This document shows positions 9,491 through 23,817 of a DNA stretch of 23,817 nucleotides, one piece after another. Below the pieces are notes generated by a model that saw only the letters and a list, made by a program, of their open reading frames with translations, ran no database searches and was not told where the DNA came from. Both the position numbers and the translations under genes were made by a program. The DNA lies in IMG/VR virus record IMGVR_UViG_3300025282_003020, positions 1 to 23,817 of that record; one strand, written 5' to 3'. Source of the DNA: a virus. Each line of letters begins with the position of its first letter. Position 1 is the first letter of the stretch.

Positions 9491-12400
9491 TTAGTTCGGA
9501 ACCAGTTCGTCCAAATAAAGCCTCTCGTACTGGCTTGCAGAAATATTGGGGTCTTGGATGCCTTCTGGATCCCGCACTCTCTTTCGGATCAGGTTATTCA
9601 GATTTTTAGAGTCGCGATATTTATATCCTGCGTCCCTCATCCCAATTATCCACTGAGGATTATCACGCCACGCAGTTTTAACAAACCTGAGCTGCAAATC
9701 GCCCATCACTCCAGAATCTTTGTACGCCTTATCAATTGCTTCTTTCATCTCTCGTGCTTTCCCCGGAACGTGTCTTTGGGCTTCTCTCTCGGCAGTCGAA
9801 AGGTCGAGATACCCTATGACCGTCGATTCTGTCACATCTGCCTCGGCAGCGATAAACTTTATGAACGCTGGATGTCTGTCCAGCTTCCAATAGTTAGATT
9901 CATGTCCACGAATGACCTGTGTATACGACGAGGCATACCGCCCGGCATTGATCAACTTTTTCATTTCTTCTGGGTACTCACGCTCGATTAACCGTATATT
10001 CCTGAGCAGCTCTTCAGCCTCTGGACGGGTCAAACTAGACCAGAAGGCAGCCGAAAGGGTGTCAACATTGGACTCTTTATCATCGCTTTCATCCCAGTTT
10101 ATCTTGCCGTCTTCTCCTGTCGCATCCTCGAATATCTTGTAGTATCGCCAGACACGGTGTTCTCGTGTTCCCGGTTCGGGTTCTTCTCTCGGCTTGTCCC
10201 TGTCATACAGCTTGTCATTGATACCACCGGTGGTTCGCTGTTTTTCAACATCCCACGTATGGCCGTAAAGCTCGCCGACACGCACCTGTCGCGCTTCGTT
10301 GTATTTGATTCTTGAAATAGTTGCACTCCAGTCATCGCTCGTTGTCGGAGCAGACAGATGCTGCTCTGCAATTCTCTGCAAGCCTTCAAGAAGGGCGGTA
10401 TCCGCGGCTTCCTTCTTCTCATACAAATACCCCTTGGGGCCTTTCTTGCCGCGTTCTCCCATCCTTTCCGTTACCATGTCGTCTATCTCTTCTTGGAACA
10501 AGCCGTCGAGGTCGTCATACGGCTCACTATATATCTCTTGCGCTAGCTCTTCCCGTTCATCTGACCGTGAAAGACGGGCAACCCTGAAGCCCGGCACTTC
10601 CGCAGCCGCCGCTGCCATTGCTCCAGCAGCACGTTCCCAGTCGCCCTCCATTGCAGACTGGACACCTTCAATCAGTTCTCCGCCTGCCGCACCTGGGGCG
10701 ATTGGCAGTGCCAAGTCGCCAATATATCTGAGTATATCCATCGGGTCAGCCACCTTCCCTACTTGAGGGTCAGCCCTGATAACTCCTAATGGAGCTGGAG
10801 CGCCCGTGAACGTGTAGCCTGTATAGTTGTCCCAGAACAGACGTACCACACCGCTGGTAAGTCCTCTTGATGCCTGATTAAGCCCATTTGCGCTTGGGTC
10901 AGCGGCTAGCGTTGCGATAGCCCTGAACAGACCAACAGTCGGGCCGAAGACAGAGAAGTCTCTCCCGCCTGCTCGAATCGTATAGAAGTTCGCATTGACC
11001 CTGCCGTTCACAAACGGCCTTCTGTCTGTCTCGTGTCCAAGGGCAGCATTTGCGAGTTCTGTTGCAAAGGCTCCCATTCCAATCAAGCGCGTCATTGTGT
11101 GCAGTGCTTCCCTGCTCTCTATCGTCTGCGCTCTTCCCATGCTTGCAAGCACATCAGATTCTATCATCGGTTTTCCTCGGAATGGCACGTTCACCCTTGT
11201 TTGTCCAAGAGTTCCCAATGCTTCCCGTGTCGGGAGCCTCATACGGGTTGCGCCAACGAGTGACTGCCCAAGCACTTCAAGCCGTGACTGGAAGAACCTT
11301 GCAGCAAACATTGCGAACTCACCGATGTCACCACCAAACTGCTTATCTGACCACCCAGTCATCCTGTTTGCGGCATTTGCGATTTGTCGCAGCTCGCCTG
11401 AACTGTGCAGTTGCTCCATTGTTCTGCCCTTGGCAAGTTCGTGTCTCAGCAGTTCGTCTGCCCATCGAAGACGTAACGCATCACCAAAGGCACCGAAAAG
11501 GCGGTTGCTTAATTGGAACCCGCCACCTAGTCCTCTGGCTACCGCTCCAACCACGGGAGTCCTGACTTCCATCATTCTCTCAACGCCCGGAAGCCCTGTC
11601 TCTACGGCAGTGCCACCCTGACGCAATCCAAGGTTAGCCCATATCCTGGAAACAAGACGCCCATTATCTGTTGCTTCTTTGTCAAAGCGTTGCAAGGCTT
11701 CATCAATGACCTCTTGCCCCCTTCGGCCTCTTGCACTGTTGTACAAGGACCTGAAGGTTAGCCCAGTTGCCTGCCCCCATTGCTTGGGGGTTCTGAACAG
11801 AGCAAGCCCGCCATGTATGCCAATAGCAGAGAGGTCAAAGTTCGCCTTGATCCCACGGTACAGGTTGTTGATGTGCCTGATAACAGGAAGTTTTGCGAAT
11901 TTTAGTACGGGCGATTCTCTGAACTCACGGTTTAGCGTAGCGGCAAAAGCGTCATCAGCATCAACTATTTCTAGCCCTTTGGCGCGCTCAGGTAATTTCC
12001 TTTTTCTGCCACGATGAGCCTTGGCGAGTTCTTTCAGCCTCGTGTCAATGTTCGCGTCGGTGATTCTACCAGCAACGCCCTTGATATACTCTCCAAGAGT
12101 TTTGTCGGGCAAATCATATCTACCACTTTGAAGTAGTTCCCCGTCAGGGGTCTTAATAGCATTGCCCTGATCATCGACCAGCCTACCCATAGCTGGCATT
12201 TTCGCCTGTTTTTCAGCGGCAAGAAGACCTTTCTTGGTAGGGTCTTCAGCAAGTTTTATAAGGTCATCAAGCTCCTCTGTAATGCTGTACAAGGTTTCTC
12301 CGTCAGTCGTTCTGATTCTTCCTCTGCTTAAATAGAACCCATTACCCGTTACGTCGGGTCGCACACGATTCGGGTCCCATCCAGGAATATTGTCCCTGAA

Positions 12401-14632
12401 CACCTTGTTCCATCCAGGGATATAGACCTGAGATCCTCCAATCTCCTGTGTACTCCCAGTTTCAGCAAGCTCCCGCAGCGTACCCATAAATTCCCTTTGC
12501 CCGCTTGTAAGGAGCGGTTCATAGACATCGTATCGTGCTGCTATATCCTGTATGGTCGGAGATTGCAATATTGCTTCGCCTCCTTCATACGCCACCCTCA
12601 CTCTGTTCTGGAGTGCCTCATCAAGGATGTTCCCTGCGGCATCAGTCGTAAAGTGATCCCGCAATCCTACTCTGACGGTTGTCGTTGCCAGATTCGCAGC
12701 ACTCTCTGCCCTGGCCATCGTTGTGTCCCTGACCCGTTTGGCTGTTTCTACCACCCCTTCCAGCCCTTCAGTACGTTTTCTGACCCTCTTCGATACTCCA
12801 ATTCCTCCTAAGAATCGATTGGATATTTCGGCTATTGCGTTAGCGCCCCTGCTCCACGTTCCAATCCGAGGATTGGCCGCAAAAGCCGCCGCAGGGTCAA
12901 GGTTGATGTCGGCAAGGGGTTTCCCTCCGAAGCTCCGTTCAAAGATATCTCTCTCGGCTGCCTGTCGTATATCCTTCATTTTGCTGGCAGCCCTTTGCTG
13001 TGCTGTACGGCTGACATCCAAAATATCCGCACCAGTCCGTCTTTGCAGATCCCAGTAGTCTGCTTCAGTCATTCCCGATCGTTCTAGTGCTTCTGATAGA
13101 GCCTCTCTGAATCCTTGACTCGTAATGGGTTCAGTTGATCCGTGTTGGTCAATAGCCTTTTGTATGGCTGTAGCTTGTCTATCGGTATCGGCCCTAAGTG
13201 CGTTCTCATAGCGTATAGGTGCCTTCTTATCAATCGCTTCTGCCCCCTCGCGCAAAACCCTAATCGCTTTTGCATGGTCACCAAGAAACTCCCCTCCTCC
13301 TACTCGCATACTCGGTAAGGCAATATTCAATGTAGGATCGAAGGGATGAGTGAAAGCTATTTCAATGTCTTCTAGGTCAGCGTCGTACAGCCTGTGTGAA
13401 TCATCTCCACTTTCCAAGGCTGATGCAAATCTACGCATTGATTTCGCCAACACCTGCTCCGCCTTCATCATCTTATCTGGTGCGCGGGAAGACGGCAGGG
13501 GGCTATATCCACCTAGATCCAAAAGCTCTGAAGCAGTTCGCTGCCTAGCTCCTTCCGGCGGTGGAGTGAGTCTCCTATCAAGATCTGCCTGCCATTTCAC
13601 TGCTGGATCTACTGGTTCCACAGGCCTGGGGGGTGCTTCCGGCAACTCGTCAAGGCTCTTCTCTAGAAACTTCAGTTCTTTCTCATGCCCCTTAATGGCA
13701 GCATCATATTCAGCTAGCCTAGATCGCTTTTCACCGCGCTGCGCCGCCACTCTCTTGAGGCGCTTCTCATCCTGAATCATTTTCTTGACTTGGCTTATCT
13801 CTGACCGCAACCCTTCTTGCGTAGTACGCAGATATGTGGCTTCTTCTCTCATCCCCCCGAGACGCTGACCAGTCGTCCCCATCTGTAGCGGTTCTTCACC
13901 TGTCTTTGTGCCAAAGGGCCATTCCTTAGAGTATCTCTCTGGGGGTCCTCCAAACGCCTCCTCAGCCACCTCGCCCGTCACACGGGGTGTGGTGGGGTCT
14001 GGGCTTATTGCCGGCCCAGCCAGTTCATCAATCTCCATTGCCTGTTCTGGTGTCGGTATGTCATCGACAACATCAACGCGCTCGCCAGCTTCCTGTACCG
14101 CTTCTACGGCGGGTCTTCCCCTAACCGCTTGCCACCCTTTTCGGAAGGGATATGTAATGCCTCGCCCTATCGCTTCTTCGGCTTTCCACGGGAGTTGCAG
14201 CCCTCGCCCCAGCGTTTGCGCTATGGGAGAGGCTCTCGACGCCAGTTTCGTTCCGACTTTTGCCAGCCCGAATGGTGCGAGTATTTCTGCACCTAGTCCG
14301 GCTGCTCCCCAATAACCAGTGCCTGCTTCCATCGGGTCTGTAAACGCCCCGATAGCGGCATCGACGTCACCCTGTCTTGCCTGTTCCCAGAAAGCCTGCC
14401 CAGATTCAGCCAGTGTTGACGGGGACACATCTGGGAGCCAGTCTCCCACGACCGGGGCTTTATGAAGTAGGGACGGCGTAGCGATTCCAGCAGCAGTGCC
14501 AAGGCCAAGTTCAGCTAGTCTTCTCCCGCGCTCAAAATAACGACCACCAGCGCCAAGAGCCGCTCCCAGTGGGTTCGGCGCGGACGCTAGCTGTTGAATT
14601 TCTTGGCGATCCTCTGGTGTTAATCTACCCAT
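9491..14632 (-). CDS. Giant internal virion / ejection protein with polyvalent-protein-like region
   Basis: This is a 1,713-aa protein. The N-terminus is Gly/Ala-rich and mildly hydrophobic (about 20-135). Residues 150-260 are Pro/Glu-rich linker and 260-331 a strong coiled coil (YLRTTQEGLRSEISQVKKMI and onward). Residues 380-900 are mixed. The region around 910-970 (INNLYRGIKANFDLSAIG, GGLALFRTPKQWGQA) and 1100-1125 (FAMFAARFFQSRLEVLGQSL) resembles central regions of phage 'large polyvalent proteins' and ejected internal proteins. A small Ala/Gly-rich segment lies near 1315-1352 and a charged helical C-terminal 350 residues follow. No lysozyme, zinc-peptidase, polymerase or ADP-ribosyltransferase motif was visible by eye. 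The place between portal-associated genes and scaffold, the size, and the absence of a tape measure suggest it is packaged and ejected with DNA. It shares TAATG with the upstream gene. Confidence 0.6.
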   Translation of the reverse strand: MGRLTPEDRQEIQQLASAPNPLGAALGAGGRYFERGRRLAELGLGTAAGIATPSLLHKAPVVGDWLPDVSPSTLAESGQAFWEQARQGDVDAAIGAFTDPMEAGTGYWGAAGLGAEILAPFGLAKVGTKLASRASPIAQTLGRGLQLPWKAEEAIGRGITYPFRKGWQAVRGRPAVEAVQEAGERVDVVDDIPTPEQAMEIDELAGPAISPDPTTPRVTGEVAEEAFGGPPERYSKEWPFGTKTGEEPLQMGTTGQRLGGMREEATYLRTTQEGLRSEISQVKKMIQDEKRLKRVAAQRGEKRSRLAEYDAAIKGHEKELKFLEKSLDELPEAPPRPVEPVDPAVKWQADLDRRLTPPPEGARQRTASELLDLGGYSPLPSSRAPDKMMKAEQVLAKSMRRFASALESGDDSHRLYDADLEDIEIAFTHPFDPTLNIALPSMRVGGGEFLGDHAKAIRVLREGAEAIDKKAPIRYENALRADTDRQATAIQKAIDQHGSTEPITSQGFREALSEALERSGMTEADYWDLQRRTGADILDVSRTAQQRAASKMKDIRQAAERDIFERSFGGKPLADINLDPAAAFAANPRIGTWSRGANAIAEISNRFLGGIGVSKRVRKRTEGLEGVVETAKRVRDTTMARAESAANLATTTVRVGLRDHFTTDAAGNILDEALQNRVRVAYEGGEAILQSPTIQDIAARYDVYEPLLTSGQREFMGTLRELAETGSTQEIGGSQVYIPGWNKVFRDNIPGWDPNRVRPDVTGNGFYLSRGRIRTTDGETLYSITEELDDLIKLAEDPTKKGLLAAEKQAKMPAMGRLVDDQGNAIKTPDGELLQSGRYDLPDKTLGEYIKGVAGRITDANIDTRLKELAKAHRGRKRKLPERAKGLEIVDADDAFAATLNREFRESPVLKFAKLPVIRHINNLYRGIKANFDLSAIGIHGGLALFRTPKQWGQATGLTFRSLYNSARGRRGQEVIDEALQRFDKEATDNGRLVSRIWANLGLRQGGTAVETGLPGVERMMEVRTPVVGAVARGLGGGFQLSNRLFGAFGDALRLRWADELLRHELAKGRTMEQLHSSGELRQIANAANRMTGWSDKQFGGDIGEFAMFAARFFQSRLEVLGQSLVGATRMRLPTREALGTLGQTRVNVPFRGKPMIESDVLASMGRAQTIESREALHTMTRLIGMGAFATELANAALGHETDRRPFVNGRVNANFYTIRAGGRDFSVFGPTVGLFRAIATLAADPSANGLNQASRGLTSGVVRLFWDNYTGYTFTGAPAPLGVIRADPQVGKVADPMDILRYIGDLALPIAPGAAGGELIEGVQSAMEGDWERAAGAMAAAAAEVPGFRVARLSRSDEREELAQEIYSEPYDDLDGLFQEEIDDMVTERMGERGKKGPKGYLYEKKEAADTALLEGLQRIAEQHLSAPTTSDDWSATISRIKYNEARQVRVGELYGHTWDVEKQRTTGGINDKLYDRDKPREEPEPGTREHRVWRYYKIFEDATGEDGKINWDESDDKESNVDTLSAAFWSSLTRPEAEELLRNIRLIEREYPEEMKKLINAGRYASSYTQVIRGHESNYWKLDRHPAFIKFIAAEADVTESTVIGYLDLSTAEREAQRHVPGKAREMKEAIDKAYKDSGVMGDLQLRFVKTAWRDNPQWIIGMRDAGYKYRDSKNLNNLIRKRVRDPEGIQDPNISASQYERLYLDELVPN

Positions 14633-19906: not shown

Positions 19907-21259
19907 CTACACCCACCTTTTCACATGGATACGTTCCCGTCCTTCGACGTAGCCGTACCCGAATCTGTCTATGAGGCCGTAGATTATGGCTTTTACGCCA
20001 TGATTATACTTGTCTTCAGGGATTTCGCCAACTATGTTCCCTTCCCTGTCTGTTTTCCACCTGTACGCCTTGGTCTGCCCGTCGAATGGATTGGGTGCCG
20101 AGCCGAACTCCGAGAGGATGCCGTGGCACTTCGGGCTGAAGACGATACGTGGGGCGTGGGTCTTGGGGTCTATCTTGAGCCACCCCTTGAGCCTCTCCGT
20201 CCCCTCGTTGATCCTGATCTTCTGGGACGAGAGGTAGAGTCCTGTTCTGTCGAGCCAGACCTCTGCGGGGGCTGCCATTGCCTGGTGCTGGTTCCCTGCG
20301 ATGTCGATGACCCCGAACTTTGCGTCGGGCCACCACTCTCGTGACTGGGCGACGTCGATGATGTCGTCGGTGACGAGTTGTTGTTCGTAGATCTCGTCGA
20401 TGACTCTGATCTGTTCTCCGATGACCTGGACGACCTCCACGGCATACGCTCCAGCATAGCCCGGATCCATCCAGATATGGACTGGTTCACCTGGTTCATA
20501 TTCCACCTCGCTTATATGCGCGTCGGGACGGAACTCAGGGAACACGAGTCCTTTGGGGGGCGAGGGTTTCCCCTCGATGCGTTCCATGAAGAAGTCGTCG
20601 CTCGACGCCTCTTTGAGTCTCTGTATCTCCGGGTCGTATTCCCCACCCGGATACAGGTGTATATTCGTATAACTCGGCAGGGAGAACGCCCGTGCATCCT
20701 TCTCCGCACCTGAAGCCCATGCCGTGAACATCTGGGGGTACCAACCTAGCGACCCCTCGAATGTTCCTGCGAGGAAGAGCCATCCCCGTTTCGGGGCGCA
20801 TCTGCCCCTCAATCTGAAGAATGTTTCGATATCGAGCTGGGAGGCTTCGCATCCGAGGATCCCGTTGGGTGCCCGCATTGCGAGTGTTCGTGGGTCTTTT
20901 GCGCTCTTCGTTTCAATCCGTGTGCCATCAGCAAGAGTGAGATGACCGGGATCGACTCGCTTCGATGCTTCTTTGAGGATTCCGAGCATGGAGAAGTCCT
21001 GCAAGAGGTACTCGAACTCTGCTCTAGTCCTCTCATAATCCGCCGCAACGAGCCAGTATAATCCTCGCTCTTCTGTCTCCGCAAAGCGTCCGAGGAGATA
21101 TTTCGATGCGATGAGGGATTTCCCTGCCTGTTCACCGCCTGCGACGAGGTTGAACCTGTAGGGCGAGTTGAGAATAACCTTCTGCTCGTCCGTAGGAGTG
21201 AAACCAACCTTCTGAAAAAGGTAGTCACGTAAATCAGGCCCTTTCGTCGCGGTGGTCAC
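19907..21259 (-). CDS. terL: Terminase large subunit
   Basis: This is a 450-aa DNA-packaging motor and nuclease. The ATPase domain has Walker A GGEQAGKS at 41-48 (Lys47), a segment GILGCEASQLD (133-143) in the Walker B neighbourhood, and the coupling-type GTFEGS at 165-170. The RNase H-like nuclease half has the Asp265 strand (HIWMDPGYAGAYAVE) and Asp319 strand (FGVIDIAGNQHQA). The third motif region is DKYNHGVKAIIYGL (416-429), with Lys423 where many homologues have the metal-binding Asp. Start is GTG at 21259, which overlaps the stop of the upstream micro-gene (TAGTG), so coupling probably helps initiation; the Shine-Dalgarno there is poor. It acts with the small subunit at the portal vertex. 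Confidence 0.92.
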   Translation of the reverse strand: MTTATKGPDLRDYLFQKVGFTPTDEQKVILNSPYRFNLVAGGEQAGKSLIASKYLLGRFAETEERGLYWLVAADYERTRAEFEYLLQDFSMLGILKEASKRVDPGHLTLADGTRIETKSAKDPRTLAMRAPNGILGCEASQLDIETFFRLRGRCAPKRGWLFLAGTFEGSLGWYPQMFTAWASGAEKDARAFSLPSYTNIHLYPGGEYDPEIQRLKEASSDDFFMERIEGKPSPPKGLVFPEFRPDAHISEVEYEPGEPVHIWMDPGYAGAYAVEVVQVIGEQIRVIDEIYEQQLVTDDIIDVAQSREWWPDAKFGVIDIAGNQHQAMAAPAEVWLDRTGLYLSSQKIRINEGTERLKGWLKIDPKTHAPRIVFSPKCHGILSEFGSAPNPFDGQTKAYRWKTDREGNIVGEIPEDKYNHGVKAIIYGLIDRFGYGYVEGRERIHVKRWV

Positions 21260-21372: not shown

Positions 21373-21494
21373 CTCTTCCTCCTTGATTTTGACATAGCGA
21401 TAGCGACCGCCTGCTTCTGCGGGCGGCCTTCCTTCTTCAGTGTCCGTATATTACTGCTGATCGCCTTCCGGCTCTTTCCCTTTTTCAGAGGCAT
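21369..21494 (-). CDS. Tiny basic phage protein (MPLKKGKS type, 41 aa)
   Basis: The protein reads MPLKKGKSRKAISSNIRTLK and then a KEGRPQKQAVAIAMS element with a basic end (KSRRKR). The pattern MPLKKGxSxKxISxNIxxL with GxPQKQAVAIAxS is one I recognise from tiny proteins of many tailed phages, often next to the terminase or portal genes. Their function is unestablished. The GGAG ten bases upstream lies inside the 3' end of terS, and the gene overlaps terS by 44 bases in another frame. Its stop overlaps the start of the acidic micro-gene. High charge and the conserved 'PQKQAVAIA' helix suggest a nucleic-acid- or terminase-binding role (inference). Confidence 0.8.
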   Translation of the reverse strand: MPLKKGKSRKAISSNIRTLKKEGRPQKQAVAIAMSKSRRKR

Positions 21495-21987
21495 CGCTTC
21501 GTCGCTCCAGTATCTCGGATAACGTCCTCTCGACCGTCACGGGGAGTTTCTCCTCTTCCACATCGCCACGACCCTTGCCAACCTCTTTCGCCGCCTTGCG
21601 CCACTCGATGATGAGTTCCTTCGCGGAATCCTCGCTCATAGCGAACTGCGGGCGGTACTTCTGGGGCATATTAGCATTCAACAAACCAATGAGCAAGATG
21701 TCACTGCCACGGTTCTTGTCAGGATTCCTCACCCGGTCGAGGGCCAGCCCCTCCAGGGACTCGGCAAACGACTGCCGCATCAAATCAAAACGCTTCGCGA
21801 ACTCAGGATCCTTGTGCCAGTTCCCATAACTCAACCTCGATATGCCGGCTATCTCACAAGCCTTCCGTATCGTCCCCCATTCCTCATACGCGGCAAGGAA
21901 GACCTCCTTCCGCTTCACAGCGTCCAGGCTCCTCTGGGTGTTACTCCTCCCAGAAACAAGAGACTCCTTCTCTTCTCTCTCTTCCAT
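21451..21987 (-). CDS. terS: Terminase small subunit
   Basis: This is 178 aa from an ATG at 21987, preceded by an AAGGGGG tract seven bases upstream. The frame stays open upstream to 22314, but that stretch crosses the palindrome array and translates to unconvincing sequence, so the internal start is preferred. Residues 15-60 hold the DNA-binding helix-turn-helix: VKRKEVFLAAYEEWGTIRKA, CEIAGISRLSYGNWHKDPEF. A central helical oligomerisation-type region follows (LMRQSFAESLEGLALDRVRN), then an 'ANMPQKYRPQ' element seen in several terS families and an acidic C-terminus for contact with the large subunit. It recognises the packaging start site; the palindromes just upstream of the gene are candidates. 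It is probably the first gene of the late operon. Confidence 0.85.
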   Translation of the reverse strand: MEEREEKESLVSGRSNTQRSLDAVKRKEVFLAAYEEWGTIRKACEIAGISRLSYGNWHKDPEFAKRFDLMRQSFAESLEGLALDRVRNPDKNRGSDILLIGLLNANMPQKYRPQFAMSEDSAKELIIEWRKAAKEVGKGRGDVEEEKLPVTVERTLSEILERRSDASEKGKEPEGDQQ

Positions 21988-22028
21988 CTCAAAACCCCCT
22001 TCCCCTAACAACCCTATCCCCTTATGAG

Positions 22029-22185
22029 TATTACTTAGTAATATTACTACTTCCCCCCTTAAGGGGGGGAAGGAAGTAGTAATATTACTAGTAATATTAC
22101 TCGATATTACTAGTAATACTATATCTAAATCACTGGTTTTTAAGGTTTTTTCGGGTATTACTAATGGTATTACTACCATATTACT
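22029..22185. repeat. Array of AGTAATATTACT palindromes upstream of terS (candidate operator / packaging site)
   Basis: The heptamer TATTACT occurs eight times (starting 22029, 22042, 22083, 22095, 22105, 22156, 22168, 22179). Its complement AGTAATA occurs four times (22037, 22078, 22090, 22112). Three pairs make the perfect 12-bp palindrome AGTAATATTACT (22037-22048, 22078-22089, 22090-22101), and 22105-22118 is the inside-out version TATTACTAGTAATA. The first palindrome is part of a larger inverted repeat, 22036-22058 against 22063-22090, with C6/G7 next to a TTAA centre and a small bulge. Another short one is ATGGTA-4-TACCAT at 22164-22179. Location just upstream of terS suits an operator for the late operon, a terS/pac binding site, or an iteron-type element. 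Confidence 0.85.
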
Positions 22186-22232
22186 CCTATCTGTCAATAC
22201 TAGGACCCCTTTAGAGAGAAAAAGTTTGTCAA
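22169..22232 (-). promoter_or_regulatory. Possible late-operon promoter(s) overlapping the palindrome array
   Basis: Read on the minus strand there are two perfect TTGACA boxes, at 22232-22227 and 22197-22192, 35 bases apart and both facing terS. Downstream of the second, 16-17 bases away, lies only a weak -10 (TAGTAA or AGTAAT), itself made of the array's heptamers. A transcript from here would have a leader of about 190 bases. An activator, or relief of a repressor on the palindromes, would fit a late promoter. Exact boxes are uncertain. Confidence 0.35.
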
Positions 22233-22255
22233 GGGTATCACAATAACCAACCATA

Positions 22256-22465
22256 AAACGACAAGACATACCCCCCCTAAGCAACCGATCACAGACAACC
22301 GTAACCACCCTCACAGACCACTACCGACCACTAACCACCGACCAACCAACCACCAACTACCACGTACACAATGCCATCTACTCTCCACCATCTACAGACC
22401 AACTATCCACTACTCACTATTCTCTCCCTTCTCATACTACTCACCCTTCTTCTCATCGGACTTCT
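22256..22465. other. Non-coding C/A/T-rich, nearly G-free tract
   Basis: Both strands lack a credible gene here; the minus strand is littered with stops. On the plus strand the stretch 22321-22455 contains about five G by eye, with runs of CCAAC, CCACT and CTCAT type. A transcript of the plus strand would be C-rich, G-poor and unstructured, like a Rho utilisation (rut) site. A transcript of the minus strand would be G/T/A-rich and contains clustered GG pairs (GGTTGGTTGGTCGGTGG) that could form a two-tier quadruplex. The function is unknown. Confidence 0.6.
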
Positions 22466-22528
22466 TGATTGTTGTCGATGACTGGCATACGTCCCTACCG
22501 CCCCAACCAACTCCTGCCGTCATCGAGC

Positions 22529-22558
22529 GGGGCGGGGCTTGGGCGGCGGGGGTTTTTT
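22529..22558 (+). promoter_or_regulatory. G-quadruplex motif followed by T6
   Basis: The plus strand has G4, C, G4, CTT, G3, CGGC, G5, then six T at 22553-22558. Four runs of at least three G with loops of 1, 3 and 4 bases meet the canonical quadruplex definition. The upstream CCGCCCCAA at about 22499-22507 can also pair imperfectly with TTGGGCGG (22539-22546), so a hairpin-plus-T-run terminator for plus-strand transcripts is an alternative reading. It sits at the border between the G-free tract and the AT-rich segment. Confidence 0.6.
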
Positions 22559-22754
22559 GGTTAATTTTAGAAACTTCTGTAATTCGTTTATACATTGTTT
22601 GTGCTTTGTTTGTGTTTTGTTCAACGTTTCAAGCTTCAAATTATAGGCAAAACAAGCCCTTCTGATAGCTTCACCTATACCAAACTACTAGCAAGGTGGT
22701 TATCGATGCTGTACGTGTCTTACAGTGCGTTGTAGGTACATTGTAGGGTTTTTC

Positions 22755-22787
22755 TTGGATAGTTAACAAAGGTATTAATCTATCCAA
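22755..22787. repeat. Inverted repeat TTGGATAGTTAA / TTAA(T)CTATCCAA
   Basis: Arms of 12 bp (22755-22766 and 22775-22787, with one bulged T at 22779) flank an 8-base loop. There is no T-run on either side, so an operator or origin hairpin is more likely than a terminator. Confidence 0.7.
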
Positions 22788-22863
22788 CTACATCCATTAA
22801 TCAATCACTAGCAATCATCCGGATCGCTTAGTTATCGACAGCTTCGCTGTAAGAAATATTGCC

Positions 22864-22886
22864 AAGTATTTCCCTGGGAAATACTT
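22864..22886. repeat. Perfect inverted repeat with 11-bp arms around one base
   Basis: AAGTATTTCCC at 22864-22874 and its exact complement GGGAAATACTT at 22876-22886 flank a single T. The size and symmetry suit a dimeric repressor's operator, about 130 bp upstream of the first plus-strand gene. A short hairpin with the 3' sequence TTTCACAAATTTCTTT could also weakly terminate transcription. Confidence 0.8.
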
Positions 22887-23019
22887 TCACAAATTTCTTT
22901 ATTTATTACGCTTGGATATTGATAAAAGTCGTGCAATTATCATCGTTTTTAGACTTTTAATGTTCTCTTTTATCGGTTAAACTTAGGTGATAAGTACAAA
23001 CTAAGCACGAGGTGTGGTA

Positions 23020-23748
23020 ATGGCAAAAGTTAAAGAGCCAAACGGTTATATAGTCTATGAGGGTATAAGCAATTATGACGGTAAAGATATCGTTGTAATT
23101 GCTACTGGTTTTGCTAACAAAAGCAAAAACACAAAAACCGGAGACATGATCCAAACTTGGATTATGCAACAAGATACACCACCACATGAAGCAATCAAAA
23201 ACGGTAATGATTATAGTGTGTGTGGTAATTGTCCATTACGCCCATTGAATTACAAAGCTAATGGATTGAAAAAACGTTGTTATGTGTTGGTACATAATGC
23301 ACCGCTTACAGTGTGGCGTACATACAAAAAAGGCGGTTATGAACACAGCACACCGGAAAGATTGCGGGAATTGCTACAAGATAGCAACGGTTTGAGACTT
23401 GGAAGCTATGGTGATCCCGCAAGCGTACCGTTTGAAGTATGGCAATCGATCGGAGTAGGTACAGGCGAATTCAATCACACTGGTTATACGCATGGTTATC
23501 TTGTGGATAACTTTGATACTAGATACCTTGACGTTGCAATGATTAGCCTGGACAAAATTACGCCCCAACTACCACCCGGATTAAATGGCCGTAGCTTTAG
23601 AGTGATTGATTCGGTCGATGAAGTTTTACCGGGTGAGATCCTATGCCCGGCAAGTAAAGAACAAAACTATAAAACAACGTGCGAAAAATGCGGACTGTGT
23701 GCAGGCCTTAACCGTAAAGCAAAGAACATAGCAATAATTATCCACTAG
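23020..23748 (+). CDS. Cys-rich phage/plasmid protein of the gp88-like family
   Basis: This is 242 aa from an ATG at 23020, with GAGGTG ending five bases upstream; the GTG at 23014 overlaps that ribosome-binding site and is rejected. Seven cysteines occur, in patterns C68-x2-C71-P (SVCGNCPLRP), C87, C209-PAS, and C221-x2-C224-x2-C227 (TTCEKCGLCAG). The core has RLGSYGDPASVPFEVWQ (126-142) and HTGYTHGY (153-160), and the C-terminus is KNIAIIIH. I recognise this combination from a family often annotated as 'gene product 88' in environmental phages and plasmids; its biochemical function is not established. The clustered cysteines suggest a metal or Fe-S site. Lower GC and opposite strand set it apart from the late operon; it is probably the first gene of an early plus-strand transcript. 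Confidence 0.7.
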   Translation: MAKVKEPNGYIVYEGISNYDGKDIVVIATGFANKSKNTKTGDMIQTWIMQQDTPPHEAIKNGNDYSVCGNCPLRPLNYKANGLKKRCYVLVHNAPLTVWRTYKKGGYEHSTPERLRELLQDSNGLRLGSYGDPASVPFEVWQSIGVGTGEFNHTGYTHGYLVDNFDTRYLDVAMISLDKITPQLPPGLNGRSFRVIDSVDEVLPGEILCPASKEQNYKTTCEKCGLCAGLNRKAKNIAIIIH

Positions 23749-23762
23749 AAAGGACCGAAACT

Positions 23763-23817
23763 ATGAAAACTTGTCCACTATGCAATGGTTACAGCATCGA
23801 ATTAGGCACACTCGGGA
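23763..23817 (+). CDS. Start of a second plus-strand gene, cut by window edge
   Basis: An ATG 14 bases after the previous stop, with GAAAGGA upstream, opens MKTCPLCNGYSIELGTLG before the window ends. A C-P-x-C-N-G pair at the very N-terminus looks like half of a zinc ribbon. Too little is present for a functional call; coupling to the preceding gene is suggested by spacing. Confidence 0.6.
   Translation, partial: MKTCPLCNGYSIELGTLG

Follow-up and report, generated by a model that had tools for sequence, protein, structure and literature searches.

The DNA examined here, referred to as the window and analysed whole, is a 23.8-kb record from an uncultured marine virus. Its late genes form a leftward operon that opens with terS (21451..21987, minus strand), continues with terL, which encodes the large terminase (19907..21259, minus strand; phrog_2, E 9.5e-23), and then runs into other virion genes, including that for the major head protein. 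The 178-aa TerS matches phrog_4044 and phrog_2538, and is built of an HTH at about residues 16-57, which AlphaFold models with a pLDDT of about 93-95, and a helical core. The first early gene (23020..23748, plus strand; phrog_2554) diverges from the late operon, and a dense array of dyads lies between the two.

Several other features of this map can be recorded alongside. A 1713-aa virion protein (9491-14632, minus strand) has no PHROG or Pfam match, and its versions in relatives span 1512-2088 aa. G+C content is about 0.55 in the late genes but drops to about 0.40 toward the early genes (window 22500-23817), which suggests that the early region differs in gene origin or was exchanged recently. 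At 22190-22450, between array and early gene, the plus strand is markedly short of G and rich in C (GC skew about -0.35), and a GC-rich hairpin-like stretch with GGCGGCGGGGGTTTTTT at its end (22490-22560) resembles an intrinsic plus-strand terminator or may be a fold within the divergent intergenic region. Further into the early side, at about 22863-22887, there is a 23-bp palindrome, AAGTATTTCCCAGGGAAATACTT, that is also found in two relatives (L004 and L006). The phrog_2554 early protein has counterparts of about 42% identity in viral contigs that are unrelated to the window and about 147 kb long (L086/L087). Part of an early protein of the relative G016 (L100:2401-3039, minus strand; phrog_351) is sigma-factor-like; this protein, possibly a phage sigma factor, is patchy among relatives.

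The array (22027..22185, minus strand) comprises 12 half-sites, eight of which read TATTACT (22029, 22042, 22083, 22095, 22105, 22156, 22168 and 22179) and four AGTAATA (22037, 22078, 22090 and 22112), most of them spaced by either 10-13 bp or about 22 bp. A single further copy of the heptamer exists in the 23.8 kb, at 21449. A preliminary description of this DNA had reported twelve heptamers (eight direct, four inverted) within about 160 bp, together with three perfect 12-bp palindromes, and had judged the array to be beyond chance. All of these counts were confirmed, with the three palindromes being perfect copies of AGTAATATTACT at 22037, 22078 and 22090, and both repeat density and palindromes lie far outside shuffled expectation. 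In dinucleotide shuffles of the array, the commonest 7-mer occurred 2.7 times on average and 7 times at most, compared to the 12 observed; perfect 12-bp palindromes number 6 in the array against 0.2 (maximum 3) in shuffles; and only 0.39 matches to AGTAATATTACT with up to 2 mismatches are expected, a count of 3 being reached in 0 of 100 shuffles. Each genome has one such cluster, and the array does not recur at other promoters.

We collected 80 viral contigs by a TerL search (80-100% identity) and retrieved far more distant relatives with the DNA pattern of a conserved module, an element that the preliminary description had overlooked. This module, GGGTATGTCTT-N25-TACCCTTGACAAACTTTTTCTCTCTAAAG (22209..22273, minus strand), is the best-conserved part of the locus, and its spacing is invariant across distant relatives. 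Its short pattern is GGGTATGGCTT-N25-TACCCnTGmCA..TTTT..TAAAG and the longer one GGGTATGGCTTR-N25-TACCCnTG[A/C]CA[A/G]AnTTTTT..TAAAG. Read toward the late operon, the order is fixed-spacing module, dyad array and GC-topped hairpin, and about 100 loci from uncultured phages share this three-part layout. The nearly complete 36.8-kb genome of G016, both ends of which lie within the portal gene, has a single intergenic region with the element, from which one early and one late operon diverge. Among known phages, a DNA search gave no match, TerL relatives reach about 27% identity at most, and the module appeared only as chance matches (E about 6); a search for a host via GTDB gave no relative.

The third part of the layout is represented in the window by a hairpin or imperfect palindrome (22036..22090, minus strand) with a CCCCCCTTAAGGGGGG core at 22053-22068 and outer arms that are copies of the repeat. 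The larger hairpin with a C6/G7-TTAA core noted previously is real. Across relatives such hairpins often consist of C4-8, a four-base loop and G4-8 with repeat-derived outer arms, and their form is kept while the loop (TTAA, TTTA, TAAA, TATA and others) and the flanks differ. Of 74 distinct intergenic regions, 43 contain the pattern C4+N4G4+, compared to 1.3% of shuffles. Folded as RNA, the window hairpin has a predicted energy of -35.5 kcal/mol; it sits between the promoter and the first late gene, and its short loop varies in sequence, as might be seen if array and hairpin acted as RNA within the late transcript's 5' leader, controlling stability or translation. We consider this reading highly improbable, given that the half-sites occur in both orientations at a helical spacing typical of protein-binding DNA, that the part of the array overlapping the promoter would escape transcription, and that Rfam matches were all far below gathering scores.

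In contrast to this constancy of layout, the repeats themselves are diverse. Clade 1, which includes the window, uses AGTAATATTACT, GGTAATATTACC, AGTAATTACT, TAATTAGT, ATGTAATTACAT, ATAACATGTTAT, ACTTTACT, TAAGGA and AACGTTAC, and clade 2 uses GTTTCAnnGAAAC or ATTTCAnTGAAAT, with dyads every 22 bp or so in the best cases. Relatives share the layout, with a repeat sequence that differs between lineages. The position of the array next to terS, as described for the window, likewise does not extend to the distant relatives: in clade 2 other genes, among them a small membrane-protein-like gene and a 715-aa gene, separate the two, and the array nonetheless keeps its form and stays with the module. 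The presence of TAATATTAC within AGTAATATTACT pointed to a geminivirus-like origin; this is a coincidence, as relatives replace AGTAATATTACT entirely.

The array also overlaps a probable late promoter (22170..22197, minus strand), made up of TTGACA at 22192-22197 and a putative -10-like TAGTAA at 22170-22175 within the outermost repeats. Two TTGACA boxes facing terS had been pointed out in the preliminary description. Both are present and the one at 22192-22197 is conserved, but the other (22227-22232) is probably not a -35 box, because it belongs to the module (TACCCnTG[AC]CA in relatives). Downstream of the module, TTGACA is found in 43 of 57 distinct loci, mostly of clade 1, against 6% expected, and it is missing from most clade 2 loci, in which the array is present. 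With the -10 in the first repeats and TTGACA after the module, a protein bound to the array should affect late transcription in clade 1. These observations bear on the reading that the array is a cooperative operator, at which a dedicated phage or host regulator silences or activates the late operon and to which TerS is correlated only through linkage. Arrays of palindromes located at promoters are typically operators, the late operon always has the element at its beginning, and a plain operator would also fit the overlap of repeats and promoter. Conversely, the many clade 2 arrays that lack TTGACA are not readily accommodated by it.

To determine which protein matches the array, we compared array types with candidate genes across relatives, in which the N-terminal HTH of TerS is variable and its core conserved. 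In 44 distinct phages, array distance is correlated with TerS HTH distance when TerL and the TerS core are controlled (partial Mantel 0.318, p 0.0005), although such tests retain some effect of shared ancestry and linkage may account for some of the correlation in clade 1, where array and terS are adjacent. TerL and the TerS core show no significant residual correlation with the array in the same phages. The phrog_2554 early protein, evaluated as an alternative array binder, was rejected: in 12 phages from both clades the HTH predicts the array with the early gene controlled (0.76), whereas array type does not follow the early gene in the reverse comparison (-0.09). Parsimony was not discriminating: trees of TerL, the HTH and the TerS core required at least 9, 8 and 6 array class changes, respectively. 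Nor was mutual information per column, in which the HTH did not exceed the remainder of the protein apart from the two top-information columns, 35 and 44.

Two sister pairs serve as natural experiments on this covariation. L043 and L048 have TerL proteins that are 98.4% identical and share 96.6% DNA identity over 3.2 kb covering terL and downstream sequence, as well as 88% over part of the module, yet the array (AGTAATATTACT versus ATAACATGTTAT) and terS (HTH 39%) have been replaced jointly. In L039 and L047 (TerL 99.3% identical), the array type changes from TAATTAGT to ATGTAATTACAT, and nonsynonymous changes affect 11 of 36 codons in the TerS HTH, compared to 7 of 115 codons for the core and 3 of 449 for terL. 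A distant regulator acting on an operator would leave both the joint replacement in the first pair and the HTH-concentrated change in the second unexplained.

Among the phage early genes compared between relatives, we found no regulator gene shared by the array classes; the early gene adjacent to the array does not track it; and the early proteins examined included neither a CI/Cro-like repressor nor an integrase. On balance we regard an operator for a dedicated regulator as unlikely, though operator activity as such keeps some plausibility because in clade 1 the array is overlapped by the conserved TTGACA and the probable -10. As no conserved dedicated regulator was found, TerS would be the most economical repressor for an operator at the array, and TerS itself could be the late repressor. 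The preliminary description had offered a silencing operator or a TerS packaging site as its best hypotheses; HTH covariation, joint replacement and the fact that no dedicated repressor family is conserved across the early regions favour the latter, while promoter overlap gives the former some plausibility.

A further possibility is a replication origin of the iteron type, in which a phage initiator would bind the array and the adjoining AT-rich DNA would be the unwinding element. The phased palindromic repeats and hairpin do look origin-like, and long AT runs adjoin the dyads in some relatives (L016, L039 and L043). However, the window and most relatives have no AT run, and no initiator gene tracks the array, whereas TerS does, making an origin a very unlikely explanation. 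An N15-type protelomerase telomere was also considered and rejected, PF16684 being absent from 8 records, some of which are fragments.

We therefore favour, as the probable explanation, that the array is the TerS-binding, cosB-like part of a packaging-initiation site, with TerS binding being inferred from the sequence patterns above. The HTH domains of an oligomeric TerS would dock on many phased half-sites, and the docked protein would mark viral DNA as packaging substrate. TerS would then position TerL on the adjoining module, where the concatemer would probably be cut, such that the module is a candidate cleavage (cosN-like) region. Contig ends, taken as a proxy for packaging ends, show no clear pile-up at the module: 4 of 76 fall within 50 bp of it, similar to neighbouring bins. 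Half-site sequence and TerS HTH change jointly, which would give each phage lineage its own packaging specificity, with the TerL-facing module and hairpin scaffold unchanged. Given that the array overlaps the late promoter in clade 1, TerS occupancy could also damp late transcription there, a putative autoregulation.

This arrangement is most similar to the cos sites of lambda, 21 and N15, for which there is precedent for co-divergence of cosB and TerS (PMC4669245). In both cases a conserved segment is followed by TerS-recognition repeats (candidate ones in the window) and then terS, and the repeats diverge together with the TerS HTH while the rest is conserved. The window differs in having about 12 half-sites where the cos sites have 1-3 R sites, a GC-topped hairpin whose arms are repeats and, in its clade 2 relatives, an array separable from terS. 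We do not claim membership of the cos sites as such. Cos-type TerS proteins of PaP3 and NV1 are likewise small and HTH-bearing, though neither has a significant sequence or fold match to the window TerS; in a Foldseek search with the window model, NV1 TerS (7joq) and phBC6A51 (2ao9) matched weakly (E about 2-5). In pac sites of the SPP1/SF6 type, boxes bound by TerS adjoin the cleavage region near terS. Headful phages of this kind have circularly permuted, terminally redundant virion DNA; the two portal-gene ends of G016 are those of an assembly and by themselves favour neither type of packaging. TerS proteins of pac phages usually show weak, low-specificity binding in vitro (PMC9611059), unlike the strong TerS specificity that covariation among the window relatives would imply. 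PaP3 TerS binds 20-bp cos DNA through its HTH (PMC7672466), the site used being a single cos oligonucleotide with no array.

How TerS reads packaging sites has been described as still unanswered (PMC9611059). The relatives of the window provide more than 40 natural pairs of TerS HTH and array, including sister pairs with near-identical TerL, a set large enough to derive and test a TerS-DNA recognition code, and the module offers a handle for locating packaging sites in uncultured phages. A more tentative proposal, which we consider possible but doubtful, is a dual role in which array-bound TerS would both close the late promoter and initiate packaging at the module, tying commitment to packaging to late transcription. 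The TerS HTH and its array would then form an interchangeable specificity cassette, through which co-infecting relatives may avoid cross-packaging.
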